Source of the DNA: Bacteroidota bacterium
Lineage (GTDB): Bacteria > Bacteroidota > Bacteroidia > Bacteroidales > FEN-979
Reading direction: 5' to 3'
Length of the DNA: 64,000 nucleotides
NCBI GenBank assembly: GCA_026391835.1
Contig: JAPLDF010000025.1
Span: 1 to 64,000, forward strand
Shown here: positions 1-57,457 of the stretch, piece after piece
Layout of the letters: each line of letters opens with the position of its first letter
Position numbering within the stretch: the stretch's first letter is position 1
Notes under the pieces: generated by a model
Database searches by the model: none
What the model was told of the DNA's origin: nothing
What the model saw: only the letters and a program-made list of their open reading frames with translations
Position numbers and translations under genes: made by a program

Positions 1-115
1 TCATCGGGCAAAACAGGGTGGTATGGCTGGGTCAAATCAGCCGTTGACCTCCAATTAATTCACTTTTCTGATACTAAAATTCAGAATAAAACGAAGTGAT
101 TCTGCAAAAAACCGT

Positions 116-123
116 TATATTTG
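116..123 (+). promoter_or_regulatory. putative Bacteroidota -7 box TATATTTG (TAnnTTTG)
   Basis: Exact TAnnTTTG match 20 bp upstream of the 143 ATG; no clear -33 TTG seen. Confidence 0.4.
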
Positions 124-142
124 CGATTACAATCGCTAAACA

Positions 143-1267
143 ATGATAAACCGAATTATATTAAATGAAATTTCAGAGAAACTGGATAGCGGTAAGGCAA
201 TTTTGCTCTTCGGTCCAAGACAAACCGGGAAAACAACCCTGCTTCAATTGTTGTTCAATGGTAAACCCGGAGTTATGTGGTTGAACGGCGATGAGGCGGA
301 TGTTCAGCAACTGTTTGAAAACGCATCTTCCACGCGATTGAAAACGGTTTTTGGAGAAAATAAAACGATTGTCATTGACGAAGCCCAGAGAATTATCAAT
401 ATCGGTCGTTCACTTAAACTGATCACGGATGAACTGAAAGAAATTCAGGTGATTGCAACAGGTTCGTCCGCATTTGAATTGGCAAACCGGATCCAGGAGC
501 CACTTACCGGACGCAAATGGGAGTATTTTCTGTTTCCCTTATCCTTTGGAGAAATGGCAGCCCATCATGGTATCATGCAGGAAAAAAGAATGATACCTCA
601 CCGGCTCGTGTATGGATGCTATCCTGAAATCGTAAATAATCCCGGGAAGGAAAAGGAAATTCTGAAACAGCTTACGGACAGTTTTCTTTATAAGGATATA
701 TTAATGATCGACGGTCTGCAAAAGCCGGCGAAAATTGTTGCCCTTCTGCAGGCTTTATCTTACCAGATAGGGAACGAAGTCTCATACAACGAACTTGGAC
801 GGACAATAGGCCTGGATAACCAGACCATTGAGAAATATATTGACCTGCTGGAAAAAACCTATGTCATATTTCGTGTGGGGGCCTTGAGCAGGAACCTGCG
901 GAAGGAACTCAAGCGCGGGCGAAAAATTTATTTTTATGACAATGGCGTGAGGAACGCACTGATTGCCCAGCTTGGTTCCATTGAGGCCAGATCCGACAAA
1001 GGAGCGCTATGGGAGAATTACCTGATGGCCGAGCGGCGAAAATTTTTAGCCTACCGGGGAATGTGGGTAAATTCGTATTTCTGGCGAACCCAGGACCAAC
1101 AGGAAATAGATTATGTTGAAGAGACGGATGGTATTTTCCAGGCCTGGGAATTTAAGTGGAACCCTCAGTCACGGGCTCGTTTGTCAAAAACATTTGCCAA
1201 CGCCTATCAAAATTCGGAATTCAAGGTGATCACCCCGCTTAATGTTGAGGATTTTTTGACTGTATGA
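143..1267 (+). CDS. ATPase, AAA_14 / DUF4143 family
   Basis: 374-aa ORF; Walker A GPRQTGKTTLL, VIDEAQR Walker B, C-terminal FYDNGVRNALI...WENYL...YFWRTQDQQEIDYV typical of DUF4143 ATPases. Confidence 0.9.
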   Translation: MINRIILNEISEKLDSGKAILLFGPRQTGKTTLLQLLFNGKPGVMWLNGDEADVQQLFENASSTRLKTVFGENKTIVIDEAQRIINIGRSLKLITDELKEIQVIATGSSAFELANRIQEPLTGRKWEYFLFPLSFGEMAAHHGIMQEKRMIPHRLVYGCYPEIVNNPGKEKEILKQLTDSFLYKDILMIDGLQKPAKIVALLQALSYQIGNEVSYNELGRTIGLDNQTIEKYIDLLEKTYVIFRVGALSRNLRKELKRGRKIYFYDNGVRNALIAQLGSIEARSDKGALWENYLMAERRKFLAYRGMWVNSYFWRTQDQQEIDYVEETDGIFQAWEFKWNPQSRARLSKTFANAYQNSEFKVITPLNVEDFLTV

Positions 1268-2037
1268 TCAATGCAGCCCCTTCACCCTCGGCTTCCCCGC
1301 CACAAAATCCTTCAGGTAAAAGCCAGGTTCTCAAACTGGCCCAGCCGGAATTTTTCCCCGGCAAGGCCGGCCATGAACTTCGCCGAGGCCTGGAATCCGT
1401 CAATGAAACGGGCATTTGGATGACTACCCAGGGCGGGTTTGCATTTATCTGCTCCTTCACCGCCAAAAAAGACAGTATTGTCGGCCAGGTATTCCTGGAA
1501 TGAAAATTCATCAATAATTTCGGCCAGTACCCCCCTGATTTCATTGCCTTCGGCGTCATACAACGCACCGTAAACTTCCATACGCCTTGCATCGATCATG
1601 GGACACAACAGGGTGATATTGCTGGAATGACCATTGACAAATGACGAATGACAAATGACAGGATCTGCAGTCTCCCCGTCATTTGTCATTCGTAATTCGT
1701 AATTCGTAATTCGTAATTCCTCCTTCATCCCCACACTCATCGCCTGCAACGTCGGCACCGCGATCATGGGTTTGTCGAGCGCATAGCAAAGTCCTTTTGC
1801 AGTAGCCACCCCGATCCGAAGGCCGGTATAGGAACCCGGTCCCATGCTTACCGCAATGGCATCGAGGCCGCTGAAGGGGATGCATGAAGATTTTATAAGT
1901 TCATCAATGAAAGTTGTGAGCATCGCGGAATGAACGTTCCGTGCCGAGGACTCTTTGATTCCAAGAAGTGTTGCATCCCGGAAAAGGGCCACGGAACAGA
2001 CCTCCGTGGCAGTTTCAATGCAGAGGATCAGTGCCAT
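1268..2037 (-). CDS. tsaB: tRNA threonylcarbamoyladenosine biosynthesis protein TsaB, C-terminally frameshifted (intact ORF 1312..2037; displaced tail 1268..~1324)
   Basis: MALILCIETATEVCSVALF..., MGPGSYTGLRIGVATAKGL, CPMIDARRMEVYGALYD; tail GFYLKDFVAGKPRVKGLH* lies in another frame after the ORF stop. Confidence 0.9.
1631..1720. repeat. heptad (7-bp periodic) inverted repeat inserted in tsaB
   Basis: TGACAAATGACGAATGACAAATGACA ... GTCATTTGTCATTCGTAATTCGTAATTCGTAATTCGTAATTCC; ATTCGTA units and a hairpin of opposing arms. Confidence 0.85.
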
Positions 2038-5051: not shown

Positions 5052-6212
5052 ATGACAGCATCCGGATCGTACATGCCAGCGCTACGCTTTTTGACCCTCA
5101 GCCTTATTTTCGGGGTTCTCCTGGTATGCAGGAGCTTTGCATCCGTGCAGGATCAGACCTCGCTTGTTCCTGCCAGTGACAGCGTTTTTGAACATCCGGG
5201 CAAGTCTGAAGGCCATGCCTCCGGAAAGTTCAATGCCGGCGAAATGATCATGGAGCATGTGGTTGACAACCACGAATGGCATGTTGCCGAGATCGGCAGT
5301 ATGCATTTGACGATTCCCCTCCCGGTCATTTTACTGTATGACGGTAAATTATTTACTTTTTGTTCAAGCAGGTTCCACAATGAAGCGCACAGCTACATGG
5401 GGTTTAAGCTTGAACAGGAAGGGCCTCACAAAGGCAAGATTGTCAGGGCCGGGCAGGATGAACACCCGGTGGCCGGCAGCCCGGCAGTGTATGATTTTTC
5501 GATCACAAAAATAGTCCTGGCCATTTTGATGAGCTCACTTTTGCTGGTGCTGGTTTTTGTTTCCGTTGCCAGGGCTTATACCCGCAACAGGGATAAGGCC
5601 CCCAGCGGCCTGCAGTCACTCCTTGAGCCATTGATCATCTTTATCCGCGATGACATTGCAAAAAGCTCCATCGGCGAAAAAAAGTACGAGAAGTTCATGC
5701 CTTTTTTACTGACCGTTTTCTTTTTCGTCTTTTTCAACAACCTGTTCGGGCTGATACCGTTTTTCCCGGGAGGTGCAAATGTAACCGGCAACATTGCCGT
5801 TACACTGGTGCTGGCCGTTTTTACCTTCATTATTACCACAATTAACGGGAACAAGCACTACTGGGTGGATATCATCAATACTCCCGGCGTTCCCTGGTGG
5901 CTGAAGTTCCCGGTGCCATTGATGCCGGTTGTGGAGATCATCGGGATCATCACCAAACCGTTTGTATTGATGATCCGTCTTTTTGCCAACATTACCGCGG
6001 GGCATATCATCGTGCTTGGATTCATTAGCCTGATCTTTATTTTCGGTGAGATGAATGCCGCCATCGGGTACGGCGTTTCGGTATTTTCCGTTGCTTTCAT
6101 GATATTTATGAACCTGCTGGAACTGCTGGTTGCGTTCATACAGGCATATGTGTTTACGTTGTTGTCGGCGCTCTATTTCGGATTGGCGACGATTGAACCG
6201 GAACACCATTGA
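5052..6212 (+). CDS. atpB: F0F1 ATP synthase subunit a (with long N-terminal extracytoplasmic extension)
   Basis: MPFLLTVFFFVFFNNLFGLIPFFPGGANVTGNIAVTL...IGIITKPFVLMIRLFANITAGHIIV...LLELLVAFIQAYVFTLLSALYFGLA. Confidence 0.97.
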   Translation: MTASGSYMPALRFLTLSLIFGVLLVCRSFASVQDQTSLVPASDSVFEHPGKSEGHASGKFNAGEMIMEHVVDNHEWHVAEIGSMHLTIPLPVILLYDGKLFTFCSSRFHNEAHSYMGFKLEQEGPHKGKIVRAGQDEHPVAGSPAVYDFSITKIVLAILMSSLLLVLVFVSVARAYTRNRDKAPSGLQSLLEPLIIFIRDDIAKSSIGEKKYEKFMPFLLTVFFFVFFNNLFGLIPFFPGGANVTGNIAVTLVLAVFTFIITTINGNKHYWVDIINTPGVPWWLKFPVPLMPVVEIIGIITKPFVLMIRLFANITAGHIIVLGFISLIFIFGEMNAAIGYGVSVFSVAFMIFMNLLELLVAFIQAYVFTLLSALYFGLATIEPEHH

Positions 6213-6599
<387 letters not shown>

Positions 6600-57404: not shown

Positions 57405-57457
57405 AAGCGTGACGCGTGAAGCGTGACGAAATCGTAAATCAAAAATCGTAAATCGTT
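57405..57457. repeat. heptad repeat between nuoK and nuoL
   Basis: GCGTGAC GCGTGAA GCGTGAC G then AAATCGT AAATCAA AAATCGT AAATCGT (7-bp periodicity). Confidence 0.8.

Follow-up and report, generated by a model that had tools for sequence, protein, structure and literature searches.

Arrays of 7-bp tandem repeats in a variable loop of the core protein TsaB within a family of Bacteroidales

Heptanucleotide direct repeats with the unit TAACTGA are known in Beggiatoaceae, Cyanobacteria and some Bacteroidetes, where they are mostly intergenic and sometimes lie in ORFs (PMC4679880). One unit dominates in these repeats, and the ORF cases are mostly hypothetical proteins or cases near gene ends. According to the same paper, which cites Mrazek 2007 on this point, heptads are the commonest class of long repeats. 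The P6b stem-loop of the tRNA-Leu (UAA) intron in Nostoc contains 7-nt repeat classes that replace each other (PMC4476775). Rickettsia palindromic elements (RPEs) are palindromic repeats of 100-150 bp that occur in frame in protein genes, with inserts at the same locus in orthologues (PMC3767692). The coding tandem repeats of Borgs are fast-evolving ORF repeats in disordered regions, with a conserved hot spot; their unit lengths are always multiples of three, and almost every repeat is unique (PMC9879509).

Here we describe 7-bp arrays inside tsaB in a 64,000-nt stretch of a Bacteroidota genome (the window; source genome G000). The features of the locus are listed below.

1312-2037, minus strand: coding region of tsaB, the host gene (241 aa; TIGR03725, T6A_YeaZ/TsaB; predicted fold similar to solved TsaB/YeaZ structures)
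1612-1725, minus strand: hypervariable, repeat-filled TsaB loop, residues 105-142 (comparison of 41 family and 80 other Bacteroidota loops; pLDDT 53-56 at residues 111-140)
1678-1719, minus strand: 5′ array, read on the coding strand as (GAATTAC)4 GAATGAC AAATGAC (7-periodic tract; unit dispersed in the genome)
1661-1677, minus strand: spacer between the arrays, predicted hairpin tip (sequence; RNA fold)
1628-1660, minus strand: 3′ array of GTCATTT/GTCATTC units as read on the coding strand, in inverted orientation to the 5′ array (7-periodic tract; base-paired with the AATGAC units in the predicted fold)
1321-1322, minus strand: position at which 13 nt are deleted in comparison with the intact 3′ copy, with the frame shifted and the conserved C-terminal segment lost (relatives and contig C64 of G000)
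143-1267, plus strand: AAA_14-DUF4143 ATPase gene between tsaB and the second tsaB 3′ copy on C64 (Pfam, synteny, contig overlap)

The TsaB arrays share with the TAACTGA repeats a 7-bp tandem unit, dispersal over the genome, a mostly intergenic position, openness in one orientation and occasional presence in ORFs. Head-to-tail 7-bp units were found far above chance at many, mainly intergenic loci, as in the dispersed heptanucleotide class, with a unit other than TAACTGA; TAACTGA was not among the units listed in a census of the source genome, which is led by AAATCGT, AAGTGAC, AAAAATT and AATTACG. The TsaB site differs in that many unit types replace each other within one core protein. Similar to Nostoc P6b, a single site carries 7-nt units and shows repeated class replacement between related lineages. 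However, P6b is an intron RNA stem kept by base pairing, whereas the TsaB site is protein-coding and kept by its open frame, and most TsaB arrays form no hairpin. Like the RPEs, the TsaB element is in-frame repeat DNA in a conserved protein gene, with inserts at the same locus in orthologues, but it is a 7-bp array whose unit varies by species and which is often non-palindromic, outside the 100-150 bp palindrome rule. The Borg repeats resemble it in their fast evolution within an ORF, their disordered regions and their conserved hot spot; the TsaB unit, in contrast, is 7 nt long, not divisible by three, and dispersed over the genome. No case that combines 7-bp units in a core protein with changes of unit type at constant register and with visible filtering by the reading frame was found in the literature searched, which covered few subscription papers, nor was the motif NYELRITNYEL.

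The window ORF at 1312-2037 scored 142.4 bits against TIGR03725 in a profile search, with a curated TsaB cut-off of 69.3. Its loop is 38 residues long, between SVGM and LLCPMIDARR. Read in sevens on the coding strand, the loop consists of AAGGAGG (AATTACG)4 AATGACA AATGACG, a short spacer and GTCATTT/GTCATTC units. Tandem Repeats Finder reported 7-bp arrays at 1626-1660 and 1677-1719, and the tsaB reading frame is unbroken by them. In the window, AATTCGTAATTCGTAATTC had 6 matches at up to 3 mismatches versus 0.05 expected. The predicted RNA hairpin of the window loop reached −43 kcal/mol over 121 nt (z = −5.3), and no shuffle was as good. The original prediction of inverted, hairpin-forming 7-bp arrays in frame inside tsaB was confirmed in this respect, the hairpin as a predicted structure.

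AlphaFold2, run with 50 sequences, gave a pLDDT above 90 over most of TsaB and of 53-56 at residues 111-140. The low-confidence insert was placed between a helix at residues 96-116 and a strand at residues 141-149. Foldseek with the predicted fold retrieved solved TsaB/YeaZ structures, and in a sequence alignment the gap opposite the insert fell in the equivalent, short loop of E. coli TsaB. A structure prediction had been proposed as a check for a surface loop, and the model, with a poorly predicted segment between well-modelled elements, agrees: the insert is probably a disordered surface loop. The insert had also been called exapted. That term implies a function and is not supported by the results.

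Loops at the same place were compared in 44 genomes of the family, in which 41 loops were readable, and in 80 other Bacteroidota records. As predicted, a short linker is normal in TsaB: loops in the 80 records had 4-19 residues and no clear 7-bp array, with one exception (L064), whose loop type is the same as that of a family member. The presence of the same insertion in distant Bacteroidota TsaB proteins, named beforehand as a sign of native sequence, was looked for, and 79 of the 80 had short, array-free loops. The loop in the window is therefore enlarged, as had been proposed, but by about 20-30 residues rather than about 35. Within the family, clear 7-bp tracts were found in 19 of the 41 loops. 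Their unit types differed and included AATTACG/A, AATGACC, AATTTCA/C, GGTTCCA, AAGGTTC, CCAACTG, GGAGGTC and GCAAAAT. Some family loops hold other repeats instead (PSPTREG-like and LRAQRSN-like translations), and several species have short loops only. The peptides encoded by the arrays are unrelated between species (NYELRIT, FQVPGSR, QLPMTND, GRRSEVR).

All 13 genus loops compared share one 7-nt register, including the decayed-looking loops of G005 and G013. Over the first 28 nt, identity between genus loops was 0.65 unshifted versus 0.21-0.39 at all other shifts. The loop with TTCCAGG is also in the genus register, with AATTTAA AATTCCA GGTTCCA as its first units. Because of this shared register, the array is probably ancestral in the genus, with its units replaced in place, and it is not a fresh insertion in the source genome. 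The isolated insertion of one intergenic repeat, as first proposed, does not fit the presence of different unit types in roughly half of the family's loops and one register within the genus. On a TsaB tree built without the loop, in which many inner branches are weak, the unit types required 16 changes by parsimony, the minimum possible being 11. In other genera, different repeats at the same TsaB site suggest that additional, separate insertions are likely.

The repeat type of the loop is dispersed over the source genome. Allowing at most one mismatch, AATTCGTAATTCGTAATTC had 43 matches on many contigs, while its reversed control had none. A tract census of about 1.26 Mb of this genome found 109 period-7 tracts, and none in a first-order Markov shuffle. 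These tracts split into 83 intergenic, 16 straddling gene edges and 10 in predicted genes (about 90% intergenic or at edges), an approximate split because genes were called by a simple hexamer method. The tsaB arrays are two of the 10 in predicted genes. The claim that the TsaB segment belongs to an intergenic repeat type was thus borne out by both the matches and the tracts. An Rfam scan returned sub-threshold microRNA models only. Period-8 tracts, with a GTCCGCCT-like unit, numbered 39 in the same 1.26 Mb, and other periods from 4 to 13 gave 0-13. This 8-bp tandem class is abundant in the source genome, on its contigs C12, C86, C5, C72 and C51 and at L015 and L025.

For each of five unit types, every loop carrier tested has its unit elsewhere in its own genome. 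Positive genomes numbered 3 of 44 for TTCCAGG, with G017 far ahead, 9 for CCAACTG, 11 for AAGGTTC, 15 for GCAAAAT and 26 for RAATTAC. TTCCAGG alone is nearly private to one genome; GCAAAAT, considered as a second such unit, was rejected on its 15 positive genomes. Since the types other than TTCCAGG are common to related genomes, ancestry could explain much of the match between loop and genome. A comparison over three loci, tsaB, hemW and the NifS-SelD linker, showed units to be more alike within a genome (5.13 of 7 positions) than between genomes (4.49 of 7), with a permutation p of 0.0006 in the family and 0.013 in the genus, relatedness being left in.

Genes are expected to exclude repeats with a unit length not divisible by three, a restriction that stop-free 7-bp units escape. 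Seven and three share no factor, so a stop-free 7-bp unit encodes the same repeating heptapeptide from any starting frame. To score the effect of stops, the TKA triplet of the AATKAC-unit arrays in TsaB and HemW was counted in frame and out of frame. In frame, TTA occurred 15 times and TGA 0 times; out of frame, TTA occurred 17 times and TGA 15 times (Fisher p = 0.0008). The arrays have therefore been filtered as coding sequence. Most TKA units came from intact orthologues, and the result is independent of the window copy.

The window copy of TsaB ends in FENLAFT where relatives have FENLAYFEPFYLKDFVAGKPRVKGL, and the conserved C-terminal FEPFYLKDFVAGKPRVKGL segment of the family is absent from it. 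This early end results from the 13-nt deletion and is unrelated to the loop array; because the C-terminus is truncated, the function of the window gene itself is unsure. Contig C64 (L061, positions 1-482) has another copy of the tsaB 3′ half, in which the C-terminus is intact and which starts at the right edge of the loop. C64 is probably a neighbouring piece of this locus, because its opening 141 bp match window positions 1-141 exactly, on the opposite strand; contamination or a second strain as the source of C64 was dropped on the same identity. The first 125 bp of C64 had no phage match. From the contig sequences, the order of the locus is probably HlyD - tsaB - AAA_14/DUF4143 - tsaB 3′ copy - cupin - ispG. 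In relatives it is HlyD - tsaB - ispG, and the AAA_14-DUF4143 ATPase gene is missing at the corresponding place in the loci examined. The two tsaB 3′ copies diverge with dN 0.067 versus dS 0.242, which indicates that constraint has acted. The locus would be explained if the 3′ half of tsaB had been duplicated in tandem, beginning at the repeat loop, and the ATPase gene had entered afterwards. In G010, a contig (C412, L216) stops within the tsaB loop, which looks like a break of the assembly caused by the repeat. Such repeat loops may break assemblies and gene models.

The repeat loop of TsaB is real and well supported; of the mechanism of its spread and turnover we give our inferred account. 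We consider it likely that a dispersed 7-bp repeat fills a length-tolerant loop of TsaB, as an array ancestral in the genus whose units were replaced in place and whose peptide serves as filler. A member of the dispersed class would occupy the length-tolerant, probably disordered surface loop, and the array was probably at the TsaB site already in the genus ancestor. Its unit sequence would since have been replaced in register by types found elsewhere in each genome, plausibly through replication slippage and exchange with the dispersed arrays. Open-frame selection would remove only those units or phases that place a stop in frame, as was seen for TTA and TGA, and the peptide itself is most likely functionless. 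The insertion of one whole intergenic hairpin repeat into tsaB of the source lineage, with the frame kept, is unlikely. The intergenic element L008 of the same genome does have its parts in the same order as the tsaB element, the G000 arrays are inverted with a strong hairpin, and G000 differs from its relatives in the spacer and the 3′ arm; but relatives in the genus carry arrays at the same site and in the same register. The 3′ arm may still be a later addition in the source lineage. It is also extremely improbable that an mRNA hairpin is the functional part and regulates tsaB expression. Strong hairpins are predicted in G000 and G004, and z is about −3 in G017 and G021, but the loops of G014, G009, G001, G016, G018, G019, G032, G066 and G035 fold no better than shuffles. 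As this holds for most repeat-bearing loops, a hairpin was rejected as their common property; inverted arrays make up just a few of the loops.

TsaB is a known dimerisation subunit, and its loop has been kept open and long in many species, as would be expected of native protein selected for a heptapeptide that serves, for example, in docking or dimerisation, the DNA repeat being a by-product. We regard this as highly improbable, since the peptides are unrelated between species, the same DNA units occur in intergenic, protein-free DNA, and several species have short loops only. Misassembly or a decaying pseudogene, which would leave the in-frame array with little meaning, could be suspected from the frameshifting deletion at the C-terminus, the duplicated 3′ half on the overlapping contig C64 and the G010 contig that likewise ends in the loop. 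Such an artefact is very unlikely: about 19 independent assemblies whose genes are intact show the loop pattern again, the result for in-frame stops is independent of the window copy, and the dN and dS of the 3′ copies point to constraint.

The arrays are more general than a single observation in TsaB, as HemW and the NifS-SelD linker behave alike. The proposed genome-wide search for NYELRITNYEL found the motif also in HemW of the source genome. In relatives, the HemW segment has nearly unchanged length, other units and the same register; a non-repetitive version is found in part of the genus and in the other genera examined. The ordinary sequence is INKDFGSPVYDFF, and the array versions are IISDFGFQISDFF, INYELRITNYELI and IISNFQFPISNYF, all in the same register. 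This pattern suggests overwriting without a change of length, for which point mutation with local slippage would be another account. We propose only tentatively that dispersed 7-bp arrays might undergo concerted evolution and replace coding sequence where it stands, by short-tract templated conversion of core genes rather than by insertion. HemW (G000:C26:43322-44470, L217; relatives L218-L246) has a second variable site with PSPTREG-like repeats. The linker of the NifS-SelD fusion carries 7-bp arrays of differing type in many species of the family; the fusion (G000:C5:203433-204251, L144, L308; relatives L309-L337) was matched in nearly all family genomes.

Repeat DNA can thus be tolerated inside core genes, and here the 7-bp arrays of a core translation gene vary in unit type throughout a genus yet stay translatable. 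The gene thereby offers natural material for work on the spread and exchange of dispersed short repeats and their filtering by the reading frame, and also on the origin of disordered loops in conserved proteins.

Matches to ELQSTNEELQSTNEEL in CheB/CheR-like proteins look like true coiled-coil heptads of the protein and were set aside as not of the TsaB type. A heptad-coded stretch without a stop, DLRFSIYDLRFTNDKLPVRNDTLQMTN, was seen in an FG-GAP-like repeat protein of the source genome (G000:C16:25038-25193, L159). Further 7-bp arrays in the window lie at 6215-6246, 6277-6295 and 57407-57456, the former two in the gap between the genes for F-type ATPase subunit a (5052-6212) and subunit c (6339-6599).
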